Positions 8,438-15,858 of a DNA stretch of 64,000 nucleotides are shown here, in pieces. The number at the start of each line of letters is the position of its first letter. The stretch's first letter is position 1. Position numbers and translations under genes: made by a program. The DNA comes from Methylobacter sp. (GTDB lineage Bacteria > Pseudomonadota > Gammaproteobacteria > Methylococcales > Methylomonadaceae), in NCBI GenBank assembly GCA_024636505.1, contig JAGXGY010000054.1, positions 1 through 64,000 on the forward strand, given 5' to 3'. The notes beneath the pieces were generated by a model. That model was given only the letters and a program-made list of their open reading frames with translations, was not told the origin of the DNA and did no database searches.

Positions 8438-9661
8438 TTAGCTACGTTTCGATTCCCACACCGGCGGCAACCAGGTAACACCCATAAAGTGCGGGCGATT
8501 AATGTTAACCACGTTGAAAATAACGGCTCTATCTTTCCAAACGTAGTTGGCTGCATGATGCGAGTCTGACGCATGTAACGCCAGGGTGACGGCATAGGAA
8601 CCCACGCCCAAATTTGCAGGAAAAGAAAAGGTATATTCTACGCGCTCGCCCGGTTCAATATGCTTTAACGGTAATCCTAGATGGAGCGTGTTGGTGCCGT
8701 AAACCGGTTGGCCTAGACGATCCTTGATAATATAGCCCAACACTAATTCTGGAATACTTGCCTTGGCTCGCGCGGTAATTTTGAGTGTGATGTTTTCACC
8801 CACATTGACTATCTCAACGGGCTTGCCCTCGCTATTGAGAATAACGGCCAAATCCATTTCCATCTCACCTGTCCCGGAAATGGTTTGCACCTTGCCGTTA
8901 TCCAATACAACTTGTTCTATATTATAATTTCCTTTTTTCGCGATTAGGGCATTGTAGTAATCCATGACGGCTTCCGGCTCGCCCTGCAAGGCAATTTTGC
9001 CTCCATCAAGCAGGATGGCGCGGTCGCAAATGGATTGTATCGCCTGTTTATCGTGCGAGACGATCAGCAAGGTGGTGCCTTGTTTGCGAAATTCGCGGAT
9101 GCGCTCGAAGCTTTTGTGCTGAAAGTAGGCATCGCCGACCGATAAGGCTTCATCGACGATCAGTACGTCGGGGCGGCTGGCTGTTGCTACGCTGAACGCC
9201 ACGCGCATTTGCATGCCGCTGGAATAAACGCGCACCGGCTGGTCGAGGTAATCGCCTATTTCGGCGAAGGCTTCGATCTCCGGCATCAGGCCGGTGATTT
9301 CTTCCATGCTCATGCCTATCAGTTGACCGGCCATGTAGACGTTTTGTCGTCCGGTAAAATCGGGATGAAAGCCCATGCCCAGTTCCAGCAAGGCGGCGAT
9401 ACGGCCGGTGATGTGGACGCTGCCGGTGGTGGGCAAGGTGGTGCCGGTGATCATTTTCAACAGAGTGCTTTTACCGGCGCCGTTGATGCCGATAATGCCC
9501 AGCGCCTCGCCCGGTTTGACGCTGAAGTTGATGTCTTGCAAGACCCATTTGAGCTGATGCCGGGGTTTGTTAACCGGCAATAGCCATTCGGCCAGCCGCG
9601 ACCAGCGCGTAGGGTATTGTTTGTAGGCTTTGCCTAAATTGGTGATGGTGATGGTGCCCAT
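8438..9661 (-). CDS. wzt: polysaccharide ABC transporter ATP-binding protein with C-terminal carbohydrate-binding domain
   Basis: This is the ATPase of an ABC exporter that moves lipid-linked O-polysaccharide across the inner membrane. Seen in 407 residues: Walker A GINGAGKST at 58-66, signature YSSGMQMR near 146, Walker B DVLIVDEA near 165, and the switch histidine in IVSHDKQ near 202. Residues about 265-407 form the extra beta-rich domain of Wzt proteins that read a cap on the finished chain and so tie export to termination. The start at 9661 (MGTITITNLG) fits family alignments; the open frame continues 38 codons upstream without family resemblance. The partner permease is encoded upstream at 10473-11270, but a toxin-antitoxin pair separates them. 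Confidence 0.9.
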   Translation of the reverse strand: MGTITITNLGKAYKQYPTRWSRLAEWLLPVNKPRHQLKWVLQDINFSVKPGEALGIIGINGAGKSTLLKMITGTTLPTTGSVHITGRIAALLELGMGFHPDFTGRQNVYMAGQLIGMSMEEITGLMPEIEAFAEIGDYLDQPVRVYSSGMQMRVAFSVATASRPDVLIVDEALSVGDAYFQHKSFERIREFRKQGTTLLIVSHDKQAIQSICDRAILLDGGKIALQGEPEAVMDYYNALIAKKGNYNIEQVVLDNGKVQTISGTGEMEMDLAVILNSEGKPVEIVNVGENITLKITARAKASIPELVLGYIIKDRLGQPVYGTNTLHLGLPLKHIEPGERVEYTFSFPANLGVGSYAVTLALHASDSHHAANYVWKDRAVIFNVVNINRPHFMGVTWLPPVWESKRS

Positions 9662-9680
9662 ATATAAGTGTGTTTTAACC

Positions 9681-10103
9681 TCAGTTGGGCATAGCCGGAA
9701 TGGGTTTATGCAGGAAAGCGGCAATAAATTGCAGGCGATCTTTGGTGATAAGTTCGTAGACAAGTTGCATATCAATATTCATATAGTCATGCACAATCCT
9801 GTTGCGCAATCCAATCGCCGAATTCCACTGCTGCAACTCTTGCGAGTTTATATCGCCCTGTTGTTCGAGGCTGGCAAAGGCATCATAGGCAGATACAGGT
9901 ACCGGCTGGCCTGTTGCCTTGAGCAAATGTTTTGATTTACCGATGGCGTTTTCTATAAGAACTTGCAGCGCATGGAGTACGCCACTTTGTTCAAGCCGCG
10001 AAAGAGGCGCTCCCGACAGGATGCGTTGTTTCGCCTCGGTAAGCAAAGCCATTTGTTCGTTGGCAATACGTGCGCTTTCTGCCTGATACAGATCAAGCCG
10101 CAT
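9681..10103 (-). CDS. hepT: HepT-type toxin (HEPN RNase) of a MntA/HepT pair
   Basis: The 140-residue protein matches the HepT/HEPN family. Seen: the RX4HXY signature as RNRIVHDY at residues 100-107, with R100, H105 and Y107. In studied pairs R and H form the RNase site and the tyrosine is AMPylated by the partner antitoxin, which silences the toxin. The start at 10103 has a strong GGAGG ribosome binding site and overlaps the end of mntA by 11 bases. The longer upstream frame overlaps mntA extensively and is not needed. All key residues are present, so the toxin should be functional. Confidence 0.88.
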   Translation of the reverse strand: MRLDLYQAESARIANEQMALLTEAKQRILSGAPLSRLEQSGVLHALQVLIENAIGKSKHLLKATGQPVPVSAYDAFASLEQQGDINSQELQQWNSAIGLRNRIVHDYMNIDMQLVYELITKDRLQFIAAFLHKPIPAMPN

Positions 10104-10476
10104 GGTTTTTCCTCCAGTAATAATCTTCCAGTTCTCCCCATGTTTGGGTGAGGTAGTGGCTCCACGCCAGGGTATCCTCTCCCTTGAGAATAATTCCCTC
10201 TTCGGCAATCACGGCGCGCATGGCAAGCCGTGCCGATACCATGTCGATCAGGTCAACTTGATCCTTGTGTATCTCGATGACATCGGCAATTTGCTGTTTC
10301 AGGATTTCTGAGTTCTCCAGACGAGTCCAGCCATCGATGTGTTTTTTCCATCTAACAGCAATGTCCCAATCGCTCTGATCAGTTGCACTTCCATGTGCCT
10401 GGCTCCCAATCAATACTGCCAGTTCAAGATCAGTAATGGTTTGCAGCAACTGGGTTAACTTATCGAGCCGGGTCAT
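10093..10476 (-). CDS. mntA: MntA-type nucleotidyltransferase antitoxin
   Basis: The 127-residue protein is a minimal nucleotidyltransferase. Residues 24-38 carry the exact GSX10DXD motif (G24, S25, then D36 and D38) that defines MntA antitoxins, which use ATP to AMPylate HepT. The start ATG overlaps the stop of wzm by four bases (ATGA), and the 3' end overlaps hepT by 11 bases, so wzm, mntA and hepT are translationally coupled. MntA genes commonly precede hepT, as here. Being wired into an O-polysaccharide exporter operon is unusual for such a pair. Confidence 0.88.
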   Translation of the reverse strand: MTRLDKLTQLLQTITDLELAVLIGSQAHGSATDQSDWDIAVRWKKHIDGWTRLENSEILKQQIADVIEIHKDQVDLIDMVSARLAMRAVIAEEGIILKGEDTLAWSHYLTQTWGELEDYYWRKNHAA

Positions 10477-11270
10477 AGTTCATCGACCATTTCGCCGACA
10501 TGTCTGCTGAACAGGCGCATGCCGAAAGCGCACAGCGCAACAGCCAGCAGGGTTACCGGCCACAGGCTTTGCCAGACCGGCCACTGTCCGCTAACCAGAA
10601 TATCCTGACAGGCCCCGATAAGCGCAGCCATCGGATTATAGCGCATCAAGGTACGCACGGCTTCGGGCAGGATACTGACCGGATAAACGATGGGGGTGAG
10701 CCAGAACCAGAACTGGATGACGATGCCGAAAAATTGTCCAACGTCGCGGAAGAAGACGTTGAGCACGCCCAAGCTGATGCCCAGCCCGATCGCAAAAGCA
10801 ACCAGAATGGCAAAAACCGGCAATAATGCCAAGTAGACCAAACCGGGAAAGTTACCGGAAACCACTAGAAAAATGCTGAACAGGCCGAAGACGATAAAAA
10901 AATTCAACAGCGCGTTGGCGACGACGATAACCGGCAAACAAAGCCTTGGGAAGCTGAGTTTTTTAAGTAGGTTGGCATGTTCAAGAAAGGTGTTTTGCGC
11001 ACGGGTGACGATTTCGGCGAATAAGCCCCAGGTCAGTACGCCGGCGCACAGGTAGATGCTGTAAGCAAAGGCGCTGTCGATGCCGGGCAGCTTGGCGCGC
11101 ATGATTTGGGAGAAAATCACGGTATAGACGATGATCATCGCCAGTGGATTCAGGACTGTCCACGCCGCTCCGAGCAGTGAGTTCTGGTATTTGCTTTGAA
11201 ATTCGCGCTTGACGCTGCCAAGAATAAAACCTTTGTAGCGGTATAGGTGCCTGAGTCTGCCGATGATCAT
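10473..11270 (-). CDS. wzm: polysaccharide ABC transporter permease
   Basis: This 265-residue ABC-2 type membrane protein is the channel partner of Wzt. It has the cytoplasmic N-terminal stretch YKGFILGSVKREFQSKYQNS, followed by LLGAAWTVLNPLAMIIVYTV as the first membrane segment; about six membrane segments are visible. The segment VLNVFFRDVGQF, then FWLTPIVYP, is typical of O-antigen and teichoic-acid exporters. The gene is first in the minus-strand run wzm-mntA-hepT-wzt-small ORF-glycosyltransferase, and its stop overlaps the mntA start. Confidence 0.9.
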   Translation of the reverse strand: MIIGRLRHLYRYKGFILGSVKREFQSKYQNSLLGAAWTVLNPLAMIIVYTVIFSQIMRAKLPGIDSAFAYSIYLCAGVLTWGLFAEIVTRAQNTFLEHANLLKKLSFPRLCLPVIVVANALLNFFIVFGLFSIFLVVSGNFPGLVYLALLPVFAILVAFAIGLGISLGVLNVFFRDVGQFFGIVIQFWFWLTPIVYPVSILPEAVRTLMRYNPMAALIGACQDILVSGQWPVWQSLWPVTLLAVALCAFGMRLFSRHVGEMVDEL

Positions 11271-11308: not shown

Positions 11309-11487
11309 AATATGGATTCCCACGCAGGAGCGTGGGAACCAGAAATATGTATGGCTCGGAGGGCGCGCACTTTTGTCCTCGTTCCCACGCTCCCGCGTGG
11401 GAATGCATACGGAAGCATGACCACCGCCCAAAGTCAGTATGGGTTCCCACGCAGGAGCGTGGGAACCAGAAAGCGTGGGAACGCATC
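11309..11487. repeat. REP array 6
   Basis: Three full REP palindromes (about 11315-11341, 11379-11410 and 11443-11470) and a partial copy lie between wzm and the tolC-type gene. The outer two share the unit GATTCCCACGCAGGAGC or a close variant; the middle one is inverted. Confidence 0.85.
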
Positions 11488-11488
11488 G

Positions 11489-12805
11489 TTACGATTTTTC
11501 CAGCCAACCGTTGATTTCCTGTAAATTTTCTTCGGAGATGGAGCCGATGGCATGCATGAAACGGATGCGGTTTTTAATGTAGTTGTATTTGGCCTGCGCG
11601 AAATCGTTTTTGGCCGAAAATTCATCCTGCTGCGCTTTGATCACGTCGCTGATGGTCACGACGCCGTAATGGTAACCGCGCTCCATGGCTTCGCGCGATT
11701 TTCCGGCTGAGTCCAGCGCTTTTTGTGCGGCTTTGATATGCCGCGCATTGGCATTGGCACTGAGAAAGGCATCGCTGGTTTCTTTGGTGATGGCGCGAAT
11801 GGCGGCTTCGTTGTCGTTTTTGCTGAGCTGCAAACGATGCTTGGCTTCAAACATTCGATGGGTGGTGGTGCCGCCTGAAAACAAGGGCACGCTGACATTG
11901 ATCGCCGCGACTTCGGTTTGTACGTTGGCCCCTAAACTTGAACTCTGGAATCCGGTGTTGGTGTCATAGTAATTCAGCTGCAAATCGGCAACCGGCAGGT
12001 ATTTGGATTGCTGGGCCGTTACATTGTTTTCTGCCGCTTCGATGGCAATCTGTTTTGCCGAAATGGCCGGGTTTTGGCTTTGCGCCATGTCAACCCATTG
12101 CTGAAGCTCGCCCTGAATTTCCTGATAATCGACACCATCGCGCAGTTTATCGAGTTCGGCCGGACTGACGCCGGTTAATTCTCTGAGGCTTTGTTGCGCG
12201 GTGACCCGCTGGCTCTCGGCCAATATCTCGGTAGCAATAATTTGATCAAGCCGCGCTTCTACCGCATAGAGGTCGGTGATTTTTACGATTTGCTTGGCAT
12301 ATTGTTTTTGTATCTGTTCAAGCTGTTTTTCCGCAGCCAATTTTTCTGTTTTGGCAAAATTCAGCTGGTCTTCGGCTTCCAGTTCGTTGAAATAACGCTC
12401 CACCACGTTGAACATTAACTGATTATGCGCTTCGATAGCTTCTGCCGCGTATTGATCCTCCACTTTAGACGCACGCCGCCATTCCCAGAATTTGGCAAAA
12501 TCGACCAGGGTTTGATTCAGCGAGACATAGTAGCGGGTACCGTGAAAATTGCTCACGGCATCCTGAGTTCTTCCGCTGACAGTTTGTTTGTTGGCGGACC
12601 AGTTTGCGCTACCGTTAATTTGCGGCAACATTTGCCCCAGGGCCTGGCCTTTTTGCGCCGAACCGATGTCGACTCTGATTTTGGCGCTTTGCAGCTCCGG
12701 ATCGGCTTGCAGCGCCTGCTGATAAATGCCGAGCAAATCTTCGGAGACTGCCGTTTGGCTGCAGGTCAGCAGGATCAGTATTAGCCCGTATCTGTGTATA
12801 TTCAT
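11489..12805 (-). CDS. TolC-family outer membrane channel of a type I secretion system
   Basis: The 438-residue protein has a signal peptide (MNIHRYGLILILLTC..AVS) and the two alternating helical/strand repeats of TolC proteins, with AYFNELEAEDQL-like and DAFLSANANARHIKAAQ-like helices. In the family it forms a trimeric outer-membrane tunnel. It is the last gene of a three-gene operon: it follows the HlyD-type adaptor by 5 bases, which in turn follows the ABC ATPase gene. A REP array directly follows its stop codon. Confidence 0.9.
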   Translation of the reverse strand: MNIHRYGLILILLTCSQTAVSEDLLGIYQQALQADPELQSAKIRVDIGSAQKGQALGQMLPQINGSANWSANKQTVSGRTQDAVSNFHGTRYYVSLNQTLVDFAKFWEWRRASKVEDQYAAEAIEAHNQLMFNVVERYFNELEAEDQLNFAKTEKLAAEKQLEQIQKQYAKQIVKITDLYAVEARLDQIIATEILAESQRVTAQQSLRELTGVSPAELDKLRDGVDYQEIQGELQQWVDMAQSQNPAISAKQIAIEAAENNVTAQQSKYLPVADLQLNYYDTNTGFQSSSLGANVQTEVAAINVSVPLFSGGTTTHRMFEAKHRLQLSKNDNEAAIRAITKETSDAFLSANANARHIKAAQKALDSAGKSREAMERGYHYGVVTISDVIKAQQDEFSAKNDFAQAKYNYIKNRIRFMHAIGSISEENLQEINGWLEKS

Positions 12806-12810
12806 ATCGG

Positions 12811-14130
12811 TTAGTCTTCTATGAATGAACGGGCAAAGAAATTGGTGGCGGGCTGGGCCAGATATTCAAACAGGGTTCTTTCGCCGGTGTTGATTAAAAC
12901 CTCGGCAGGCATACCGGGCAACAGTTGCAAATCCCCCAGTTTCTTGCGGCTTTCAGGGGTCAGTTCAACCCGGGCCTGGTAATAGGCGTTACCTTGCTCA
13001 TCGGTCAGTCGGTCGGCGGATAAATGGATCACCTTGCCGTCCATTTTGGGTGTTTTCGATTGTTTGAAGGCGCTAAAGCGAACTTCGGCCTGTAGGCCGA
13101 CGGCAACCCGGTCAATATCCATCGGCGACACCTGGGCTTCTATGATCAGCTCGGCATCCTGGGGAACAATGTCAAGAATAGGACGCCCCGGGGAGATAAC
13201 GCCGTTTTCGTTATGTACGGTCAAGCCAAGCACCATGCCGCTGGCCGGTGCTTCGATCACGATGCGGTTCAGTTTATCCTGGTTGGCCGCCAGACGTTCT
13301 TCCGCGTCGTTAAGTTGCGCCTGGGCTTCGCTGAGCTTGCCGGCCACTTCTTCCTGAAATTGTTTTTTTACTTGTAGAATCTGCAACCGGGTTTCGCTGA
13401 TCAGCATTTGGTTGGTGGCAATTTCGGCGTTAAGCTGGGCAATTTCGCCTTTTTGCATGGCGTGATTGCGCTGCAATTCGCGCAACCGTTGCTTGTCGGC
13501 GAAGCCTTCCGCCAACAGTTCTTTCAGGTCGCTGATTTCTTCGGCGTAGGAGGCGGTCAGTTGCCTTTTGCTGTCTATCTGCCCCCGCAGGCCGTTTATC
13601 TTGCTCGAAATTTGACCGATACGCTGATTCAACACGGCAATTTGACCCTCGTACGCACTTATTCTTGCCTTGAACACGTTGTTTTCGGCCGATGTTGCCT
13701 CAATGGTTCTGATGTCGCCGACGTCATTGAGTAATTCGGGGTAATCGACAGTTTTCAACTGATCCCTTTCGGCGCGCAATCTGGCTACCTGGGCGGCAAG
13801 GGTGATGTTCTGAGCGCGGGCGATTTCCAGCTGGGCTTTGATTTGGGTATCGTCAAGCAACAGTAACGGCTGGCCTTGTTTGACCAAGTCGCCGTCTTTG
13901 ACCAATATTTTTGCAATAATACCGCCATCGAGATGCTGTACTGTTTTTCGGTGCGATTTGACCACGACAACGCCCGGCGCCAGAGCCGAACTGTCCATAG
14001 GCGCAAAAAACGCCCAAATCCCAAATACGCCAAAAGTTGCAAAAACAATGGCGGCACCGATGTTGCGTATGCCCCGATCATTGGTATGCAAAACGGCAGA
14101 CGGGTTATTTACTGCGGGTTCTTCTCTCAT
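12811..14130 (-). CDS. HlyD-family periplasmic adaptor of a type I secretion system
   Basis: The 439-residue protein has one N-terminal membrane anchor (about residues 22-44, IGAAIVFATFGVFGIWAFF), a barrel-sandwich part starting APGVVVVKSHRKTVQHLDGG, a long coiled-coil hairpin (about 90-280) and a closing beta domain with IEAPASGMVLGLTVHNENG. It links the inner-membrane ABC ATPase to TolC. The proline and arginine pattern near the C-terminus (LLPGMPAEVLINTGERTL) is that of PrtE/HlyD adaptors. It stands 12 bases downstream of the ATPase gene. Confidence 0.92.
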   Translation of the reverse strand: MREEPAVNNPSAVLHTNDRGIRNIGAAIVFATFGVFGIWAFFAPMDSSALAPGVVVVKSHRKTVQHLDGGIIAKILVKDGDLVKQGQPLLLLDDTQIKAQLEIARAQNITLAAQVARLRAERDQLKTVDYPELLNDVGDIRTIEATSAENNVFKARISAYEGQIAVLNQRIGQISSKINGLRGQIDSKRQLTASYAEEISDLKELLAEGFADKQRLRELQRNHAMQKGEIAQLNAEIATNQMLISETRLQILQVKKQFQEEVAGKLSEAQAQLNDAEERLAANQDKLNRIVIEAPASGMVLGLTVHNENGVISPGRPILDIVPQDAELIIEAQVSPMDIDRVAVGLQAEVRFSAFKQSKTPKMDGKVIHLSADRLTDEQGNAYYQARVELTPESRKKLGDLQLLPGMPAEVLINTGERTLFEYLAQPATNFFARSFIED

Positions 14131-14142
14131 AATACTTCTATG

Positions 14143-15858
14143 TTATGCAGGTTGCGCGACAGGCGCGACCGCTTGTTGTTGCTGTTGTTGCAAATGGGCG
14201 ACAACCTGGTCTCTCGGCCCGTAAACGGCTAAGGTGCCCTCGCTGAGAATTAACAGTTTATCGACTTTGGACAGTACGCTATTACGATGGGTAATAATCA
14301 GCACGGTGGTTTGTTTTTCTTTGAGCTTTACCAAAGCCTTTTCCAGCGCGGTTTCGCCTTGTTCGTCGAGGTTGGAGTTAGGCTCGTCCAGGACCACCAG
14401 CACCGGGTTGCCGTACAGCGCCCGCGCCAGGCCGATACGCTGCCGCTGGCCGCCCGACAAGTTGCCGCCGGTAGAGCCGATAAGGGTGTCGTAACCGTCG
14501 GGGAAACGCAAAATCAGATCATGAACATCGGCCATTTTGGCGGCCTCCACCACCTGATCAGGATCTATGTCGCCGAAACGGGCGATATTTTCGCTGATAG
14601 TGCCTTCAAACAGTTCAATATCTTGCGGCAGATAACCGATAAAATCGCCCAGATGCTCGCGATCCCAACTGAATACTTCTGCGCCGTCAAGACGTATTGC
14701 GCCGTTGGCGGTAGGCCAGATGCCTAATATAGCCCGCGCCAAAGTCGATTTTCCGGCGCCGCTCGGCCCGATAACGCCGACAATATCGCCTTTTTCAATG
14801 ACTAGGTTGATGCCTTTGATAACGGGTACTTTACTGCCCGGCGGCACCACCACTGCGTTTTCCAGCTGGATGCGGCCATGCGGGTCGGGCAGCAGCATGC
14901 GGTCTTTATCGGCCGGAATTTGCAATAAGATGTCGTTAAGTCGCTGGTACTGTCCCCGAGCGCTGATAAAGCCTTTCCAGGTGCCGATAATAAGGTCGAT
15001 AGGCGCCATGGCTCTGCCCATCAGGATGGAGCCGGCGATCATTAAGCCGGGCGAAATTTCGCGCTCGATGACCAGATAAGCGCCCAAGCCTAAAATCAGC
15101 GATTGCGAGGAAATACGGATGATTTTAGATAACGCGGTGAGTAAGCCGGCACGCGAGCTGGCAATGGCTTGCAGCTCTAAAACCTTGACCGCGCCGACCA
15201 TCCAGCGCCCACGTATTTTACCCAACATGCCCATCGATTCGATGACTTCGGCATTTCTGAGATTTCTGCTCAGCGCGCCACGCGTCGCCATGGCGACATT
15301 ATTGGCTTCGCCGAGTATTTTAGTGGTGGCTTTTTCGGTGACGGCAGCGACTATACCCAGCAAGATGGCGGTTATGATTGAAAACCAGCCGAACCACGGA
15401 TGAAACATGAACAGCAAGGCCAGATATACCGGCATCCACGGCGCATCAAAAAAGGCGAACAGGCCGTTGCCGGTCAGAAACTGTCTCAGGCCGGTCAAGT
15501 CGTCCAGCGGCTGGGTGGTGGCCCGCTGCCCGCCGGAATACAGCGATTGCTTAAAGGCGACTTGAAACAGACGCTGATTTAACAGCAGTTCCAGGCGACT
15601 GCTGACTTTAACCAGAATTTGCGAGCGCACCCATTCCAACGAAGCCATGGTAATAAACAGCATGATCACTATCAACGTCAACATCAATAATGTCGATTTA
15701 TTACCGGTAGCAACGACGCGGTCGTAGACCTGCAGCATGTAGATAGAAGGGGTAATCATCAAAAAATTGATCAGCAGGCTGAAACCGGCTGCGGACAGGA
15801 ATGCGCCTTTACAAAGTTTAAGCGCTTCTTCTAAATCGGACTTAATATTTATTTTCAT
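14143..15858 (-). CDS. type I secretion system permease/ATPase, PrtD type
   Basis: The 571-residue protein combines a membrane half (about 1-310, six segments) with an ABC domain: Walker A GPSGAGKST at 364-372, signature LSGGQRQRI at 467-475 and Walker B VLVVLDEP at 486-493. It lacks the N-terminal C39-like domain of HlyB, so it belongs to the PrtD group that exports proteases, S-layer and other RTX-type proteins. The C-terminus has a short glutamine run. No secreted substrate gene is beside it; the DUF4214 gene at the left edge is a candidate substrate. Confidence 0.93.
   Translation of the reverse strand: MKINIKSDLEEALKLCKGAFLSAAGFSLLINFLMITPSIYMLQVYDRVVATGNKSTLLMLTLIVIMLFITMASLEWVRSQILVKVSSRLELLLNQRLFQVAFKQSLYSGGQRATTQPLDDLTGLRQFLTGNGLFAFFDAPWMPVYLALLFMFHPWFGWFSIITAILLGIVAAVTEKATTKILGEANNVAMATRGALSRNLRNAEVIESMGMLGKIRGRWMVGAVKVLELQAIASSRAGLLTALSKIIRISSQSLILGLGAYLVIEREISPGLMIAGSILMGRAMAPIDLIIGTWKGFISARGQYQRLNDILLQIPADKDRMLLPDPHGRIQLENAVVVPPGSKVPVIKGINLVIEKGDIVGVIGPSGAGKSTLARAILGIWPTANGAIRLDGAEVFSWDREHLGDFIGYLPQDIELFEGTISENIARFGDIDPDQVVEAAKMADVHDLILRFPDGYDTLIGSTGGNLSGGQRQRIGLARALYGNPVLVVLDEPNSNLDEQGETALEKALVKLKEKQTTVLIITHRNSVLSKVDKLLILSEGTLAVYGPRDQVVAHLQQQQQQAVAPVAQPA

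Follow-up and report, generated by a model that had tools for sequence, protein, structure and literature searches.

A Methylobacter type VII toxin-antitoxin pair at a putative recurrent docking site for toxin-antitoxin modules between wzm and wzt

The DNA analysed here, a stretch of 64,000 nucleotides that we call the window, belongs to a 2.8 Mb draft genome of Methylobacter sp. (G000; contig JAGXGY010000054.1), and the nearest named relatives of the locus under study are Methylobacter MAGs. On the minus strand, the genes of an O-polysaccharide exporter enclose two small genes, in the following order:

10473 to 11270, minus strand: wzm, permease of the O-polysaccharide ABC exporter, upstream neighbour of the pair (ORF; PF01061 ABC2_membrane, E 2.1e-23)
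10093 to 10476, minus strand: mntA, predicted adenylyltransferase antitoxin, 127 aa, overlapping wzm by 4 nt (NF047752, GSX10DXD)
9681 to 10103, minus strand: hepT, predicted HEPN RNase toxin, 140 aa from its ATG, overlapping mntA by 11 nt (PF01934, E 3.9e-22; RX4HXY)
9662 to 9680, minus strand: 19-nt spacer between the hepT stop and the wzt start (ORF coordinates)
8438 to 9661, minus strand: wzt, ABC exporter ATPase with a Wzt C-terminal domain, 407 aa, downstream neighbour (PF00005, PF14524)

An earlier note on this DNA had described an MntA/HepT toxin-antitoxin pair between wzm and wzt, and the ORFs and family models bear out a complete type VII pair there, with both overlaps; wzt does follow hepT on the same strand, at 19 nt and not at the 20 that the note gave. 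According to PMC7641770, type VII systems consist of an antitoxin with the motif GSX10DXD and a toxin with the motif RX4HXY encoded by neighbouring genes, and HepT is adenylylated by MntA on the tyrosine of RX4HXY. Both motifs are intact here, as the note had read them (GSQAHGSATDQSDWD in MntA and RNRIVHDY in HepT), and they lie in adjacent genes with the antitoxin 5' of the toxin and overlapping it. The two NCBIfam models score above their cut-off of 60 bits (MntA, NF047752, 65.1; HepT, NF047751, 83), and in Pfam the pair reaches 78.7 against a cut-off of 23.5 for PF01934 and 22.2 against 21 for PF01909. Across the four-gene stretch the HepT-like, Polbeta, NTP_transf_2, ABC2_membrane, ABC_tran and Wzt_C models all exceed their cut-offs, so that the flanking genes have the ABC-2 permease (PF01061) and the ATPase with Wzt C-terminal domain (PF00005, PF14524) of a Wzm/Wzt exporter. 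Among the stop-to-stop frames of at least 90 codons in the window, GSX10DXD occurs in one and RX4HXY in three, adjacent to each other only in mntA-hepT; since both proteins are also conserved in relatives, the pairing exceeds chance. The signature motifs are conserved across the MntA and HepT alignments, with H105 of the toxin at a frequency of at least 90%, and against two relatives (L033 and L034) mntA has a dN/dS of 0.23-0.27 and hepT one of 0.16-0.23; in the close pair L035/G008 that of mntA is 0.74, at a dS of 0.04. Judged on its sequence, mntA-hepT is very probably a real toxin-antitoxin (TA) pair.

The pair had also been described as built into the exporter operon. The overlaps agree with this, and a consensus scan gave two promoter-like sites against 2.2 expected, with no promoter directly 5' of mntA rising above chance, a kind of scan that cannot rule one out. 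Several copies of a palindromic, REP-like repeat of the GTTCCCACGC...GCGTGGGAAC type were seen by eye at 11310-11480, between an upstream TolC-like gene and wzm, and type I secretion-like genes (TolC-like, HlyD-like, ABC ATPase; by eye) occupy 11489-15858 on the minus strand, 5' of wzm. The genome holds a second HepT-like match with an in-frame TAG (L001, 868-1149, contig C21).

The earlier note had proposed looking for the same insertion in other wzm/wzt operons. A HepT scan of genome contigs returned 74 loci, and the order wzm-mntA-hepT-wzt proved identical in two Methylobacter relatives (L033 and L034). In more distant relatives the slot persists but its contents differ: in L035 and G008 mntA-hepT is followed by two further MNT/HEPN pairs before wzt. 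The placement is thus kept in close relatives and recurs in distant ones, so that the argument from missing conservation, which would have made the pair a random insertion, fails; a random single insertion is ruled out by the recurrence of the arrangement. In L041 the order is a Phd-PIN pair, a relic of the wzm end, mntA-hepT and wzt, and in L101 it is VapB-PIN, a relic joining a wzt start to a wzm end, and then mntA with a broken hepT. L192, which is the same locus as L040, holds MNT5/HEPN5 pieces, a PIN gene, VapB with a split PIN match, and HigBA; an ORF6N-like gene was seen by eye at 8579-11293 of L040, between a second wzm and wzt. A decayed hepT is all that remains of the pair in L158, and short stretches resembling the hepT end and its downstream flank were seen by eye in L156 and L160. 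The exporter genes persist despite the broken or lost pair in L101 and L158 and, by eye, in L156 and L160.

Between the window, L033 and L034, the dS of the pair (mntA 0.16-0.22, hepT 0.14-0.21) lies below that of the flanking genes (wzm 0.32-0.66, wzt 0.88-1.19). DNA identity among the three is 91-99% over mntA-hepT and 81-99% over most of wzm; for wzt among close relatives it is 73-93% in the 5' part and 43-74% in the 3' part (window 8455-9043), a drop that is expected for a glycan-specific C-terminal domain. The low dS of the pair and this identity profile fit the movement of a cassette by recombination anchored in conserved flanks.

We then read 143 wzm-wzt junctions from three exporter families, 124 of them from the window's bacterial family. 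Family a, to which the window's wzm belongs, was found in 30 of the 237 genomes of that bacterial family at E<=1e-60 and in 18 of 399 genomes from the order of G241 at E<=1e-90; family b was found in 75 and family c in 20 of the 237, and the junctions read numbered 45, 76 and 22 for a, b and c. Contig ends account for the unread wzm places (5 of 31 in one family a search, 2 of 78 in family b), L290 was excluded from the count as a duplicate of L318, and the L101 junction came in via the HepT search and not the wzm search. Many of the surveyed genomes are MAGs, in which strains may have been merged on assembly. As a rule wzm and wzt overlap or stand only a few nucleotides apart (a gap of -1 in 26 of the 46 rows of one junction table): 94 of the 143 measure less than 100 nt, 11 measure 100-399 nt, 26 are of at least 400 nt, and 12 have no located wzt. 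TA genes or their remains occur in 30 of the 143 junctions (10 in family a, 18 in b and 2 in c) and TA genes in 24 of the 26 gaps of at least 400 nt, the exceptions being L174 and L269; these counts cover wzm-wzt junctions alone. In one of the 24, L317, only a relic of the first wzt is left, and the gap runs to the wzt of a second wzm-wzt pair. The occupants are of unrelated kinds, comprising several MNT/HEPN families, VapB-PIN, Phd-PIN and HigBA, and a slot special to mntA-hepT is ruled out by the presence of these other families in it.

On the wzm trees, the TA label requires 11 state changes in family b, 11 of them forced by starred branches, and 5 in family a, 4 of them forced, which implies many gains or losses of TA genes; the label is also clustered on the trees, none of 500 shuffles giving so low a count, as expected under shared ancestry. 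TA matches number 107 in 53 kb of gap sequence (26 of 131 loci), 20 in 224 kb 5' of wzm (7 loci) and 2 in 431 kb 3' of wzt (1 locus), and within the gaps none was found on the opposite strand and all lie on the operon strand; both density and strand counts favour the gaps and the operon strand, since the TA references were drawn from the gaps' own plus-strand ORFs. Same-strand orientation and a tight fit are expected from selection for wzt expression as well. Non-TA inserts, labelled by eye, also occur, DUF-like in L174 and lipoprotein-like in L269, L340 and L346, and in L309, L312 and L313 other, non-TA genes follow wzm, with no wzt located. An ORF6N gene lies inside the junction of L316 (1725-2354; Pfam), and a Schlafen AlbA_2/HATPase_c_4 gene follows wzm_c in L235 (6097-7452) and L318, with a 26-residue fragment of it left in L317. 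Taken as sequence evidence, the survey makes the wzm-wzt junction almost certainly a recurrent dock for TA modules, and this is a stronger finding than the single pair first noticed. We found no description of TA modules at wzm-wzt in the literature searched, a body that mostly excludes subscription papers.

Many occupied junctions hold more than one module. In L341, wzm is followed by an ORF6N tail, a wzt relic, MNT2/HEPN2 (with a split HEPN2 match), a second wzt relic, MNT4/HEPN4, a third wzt relic, an antitoxin/PIN module and wzt; the junction of L334 holds MNT4/HEPN4, MNT3 with a HEPN3 stub, MNT5/HEPN5 and antitoxin/PIN, and several modules are also found in L308, L310, L311, L315 and L316. 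Relics of the 5' end of wzt (within codons 1-78) accompany an intact downstream wzt in L101, L310, L311, L316 and L341, and L317 and L318 carry a wzt relic with no intact wzt of their own located. The relics share 71-86% DNA identity with the resident wzt start. In a different exporter, L065, a wzt start of 121 codons lies ahead of an intact wzt (by eye). Many junctions have no more than about 120 nt between the wzm stop and the first TA start, and at most a few tens of nucleotides between the end of the last toxin and wzt. A transposase-like ORF was seen by eye in one junction, L317. Tandem duplication followed by deletion could be an alternative origin of the wzt relics.

The mntA-hepT lineage shows a preference for polysaccharide operons in general. 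An O-antigen or nucleotide-sugar marker lies within 5 kb in 44 of the 74 MntA-HepT loci, and wzm or wzt in 13; L038 has the order gmd-mntA-hepT-fcl, and in L036 mntA-hepT sits between rfbD and rfbA. Among genomes of the window's bacterial family, an O-antigen marker was present within 5 kb in 15 of 27 loci of the window's HepT lineage against 4 of 36 loci of other HepT subfamilies (Fisher p 2.2e-4), and within 2 kb in 11 of 27 against 4 of 36 (p 0.008), where the 27 exclude the window's own genome, the second G011 copy and partial or broken matches, and the 36 are part of about 100 weaker places, taken mostly by rank, with some passed over. Our own tblastn found no HepT in three of the 36, and two of the four marker-bearing controls also adjoin wzm and wzt, one of them, L235, being a wzm-wzt insertion itself. 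The 15/27 against 4/36 comparison leads us to reject the idea that HepT genes in general keep to an O-antigen context. A phage-borne pair is likewise ruled out, as no HepT relative was found among 50,697 phage records at E<=1e-5; plasmid matches are three, and weak.

Several partners of the junction MNT genes are HEPN-like. HEPN2-5 and HEPN11 adjoin MNT genes in junctions and have no Pfam match, and the five HEPN-like partners tested gave no NCBIfam match; such Pfam-less families beside minimal nucleotidyltransferases are seen in the junction genes of L310, L334 and L317. In an alignment of HEPN2, HEPN3 and 12 relatives, which leaves out HEPN5 itself, the HEPN motif RX4-6H has R117, N118 and Y124 invariant and H122 at a frequency of at least 90%. 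A structure model of HEPN2 (pLDDT 90.9) predicts a HEPN-like helical bundle, and Foldseek against the PDB places HEPN toxins at the top with a probability of 1.00 and a target TM of 0.78, the best E being 0.013 and none reaching E<=0.001. The separate HEPN3 family keeps similar company to the MntA-HepT lineage. Of its best 25 full-length matches (54-99% identity), 10 are placed either in a wzm-wzt junction or 5' of a wzt, with wzm also present in 7; one precedes a wzm, four sit in an rfbA-rfbC junction, two are neighbours of a PseC-like aminotransferase gene, and the other eight have no marker within 1.5 kb. HEPN3 occurs between rfbA and rfbC in five genomes (L382, L384, L386, L392 and, as a broken copy, L393). 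The rfbA-rfbC junction is a second recurrent docking junction, for HEPN3.

Decay of the modules is uneven. If a part counts as full length when a single tblastn match spans 88% or more of its reference, whatever the state of its reading frame, 35 gap modules have both parts full length, 21 are fragments, 7 keep an antitoxin but no full toxin, and 0 have a full toxin but no full antitoxin. The 21 fragment rows include one mis-scored locus, L235, in which a truncated HepT of another subfamily adjoins an intact MNT gene, and one antitoxin-only MNT match, in L329, has 38% identity to its reference. Of the 98 rows of the MntA-HepT lineage, 82 are intact; in 11, from 9 distinct loci, the antitoxin is whole and the toxin is broken or has lost RX4HXY, against one, L089, with a toxin lacking its mntA and another MNT-like ORF upstream; in L042 mntA is truncated and the motif arginine of the toxin is replaced. 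Sign tests gave p 0.016 and 0.006, values that overstate independence because the 98 rows contain some genomes twice. As read from these gene remains, decay removes toxins ahead of antitoxins, which lends indirect support to the predicted toxicity of HepT and its neutralisation by adenylylation.

The junctions, as read, show that a tight boundary has been opened repeatedly, nearly always by unrelated TA families, on the operon strand, often in stacks and in several cases with wzt relics between the modules. Our best reading, to which we give about an even chance as a whole, is that mntA-hepT is one occupant of a TA docking site at which addictive modules take advantage of O-polysaccharide export loci that recombine, and may also help to stabilise them. 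Modules would come in on DNA of O-antigen loci, anchored by homology in wzm or wzt, and a join within the start of the resident wzt would leave a relic and an added module and not a replacement. Recombinants that replaced the resident segment would lose the resident antitoxin and be poisoned by leftover toxin; additive outcomes would survive because replacement recombinants are poisoned in this way, the net effect being an exporter locus that is addictive and resistant to replacement. Within this scheme, homology-anchored movement of the modules is rather likely, and stabilisation by addiction as the selected effect falls a little short of an even chance. A further step, in which the junction is a dedicated addiction dock whose resident TAs kill allele-replacing recombinants so that newcomers can only add modules, seems to us less likely than not. 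Against the main reading count the loss of the pair (L158 and, by eye, L156 and L160), the TA matches upstream of wzm, the non-TA inserts (L174 and L269, and L309, L312 and L313 without a located wzt), and the higher dN/dS of mntA between L035 and G008.

The same inserts are what one would expect if small modules simply keep landing in highly recombining O-antigen loci with no benefit to the exporter; TA modules, being small, common and not easily lost, would be over-represented, and the survivors would be the same-strand, non-polar insertions alone. This is a strong rival, to which we give roughly one chance in three; under it the modules would make no difference to whether the locus is retained, and it draws as well on the frequent decay of modules, on the lipoprotein-like L340 and L346, and on the lineage's presence in other polysaccharide junctions. 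It accounts less well for TA genes in nearly all large inserts, for the near absence of TA matches downstream of wzt in the same loci (counted with the biased reference set), and for a dN/dS below 0.3 in both mntA and hepT between the window, L033 and L034. The earlier note had proposed a guard, in which a phage attack or mutation that silences the operon could free the toxin; disturbed O-polysaccharide export would then lead to abortive infection or to the removal of polysaccharide-less cells. The embedding of the pair in the exporter operon suits this, as do the HEPN domains of several anti-phage systems (PMC3710099), but we found nothing in support of a toxin freed by exporter silencing or phage attack and do not favour it: silencing would stop both antitoxin and toxin, which overlap within a single operon, no exporter-sensing part was seen, relatives with a broken pair retain their exporter genes, the slot is common to unrelated TA families, the phage records searched hold no HepT relative, and PADLOC gives weak PDC-S09 matches to MntA (best E 3.9e-05) and none to HepT. 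The guard is therefore improbable, and the unrelated families and other polysaccharide junctions are more readily explained by addiction or hitch-hiking than by a dedicated sensor. Lastly, MntA, with its nucleotidyltransferase fold and its location in nucleotide-sugar and export operons, might with HepT modify sugar nucleotides or tune exporter gene dosage; this is very improbable, given that both curated TA models exceed their cut-offs, that both signature motifs are conserved, that toxins decay ahead of antitoxins, and that VapB-PIN, Phd-PIN and HigBA occupy the same slot.

The role of chromosomal TA modules is a long-standing open question, and here unrelated families converge on one junction of a fast-changing surface-antigen locus, where relics seem to record successive additions. 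The protection of a locus from replacement by chromosomal TAs becomes directly testable and, if true, would link TA biology to serotype evolution; the dock also points to HEPN-like partner families unnamed by Pfam and NCBIfam. Were the dock a dedicated one, the TA arrays and wzt relics would be a fossil record of attempted serotype switches, the killing would amount to a post-segregational killing that is chromosomal, specific to one locus and aimed at allelic replacement, and serotype loci would become resistant to replacement.

Among known systems, the window pair is closest to HepT/MntA of Shewanella oneidensis (SO_3166/SO_3165), with which it shares Class I composition (PF01934 with PF01909), a 5' and overlapping antitoxin and both motifs, and its MntA and HepT have sequence matches to the solved type VII pairs 5yep, 6m6u and 7ae2. 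According to PMC4621449, the Shewanella pair retains a plasmid in E. coli without selection and forms an operon of just the two genes under a promoter of its own, whereas the window pair overlaps wzm inside the exporter operon. The host genes are like those of Wzm/Wzt exporter operons, an ABC2_membrane permease followed by an ABC_tran ATPase with Wzt_C, but the junction, in such operons usually an overlap or a few nucleotides, here holds a TA pair. TA arrays stabilise mobile DNA, for example integrons and genomic islands. Like those arrays, the modules described here stand side by side though unrelated and would be addictive; unlike them, they dock at one junction within an operon, on one strand, and among relics of the downstream host gene.
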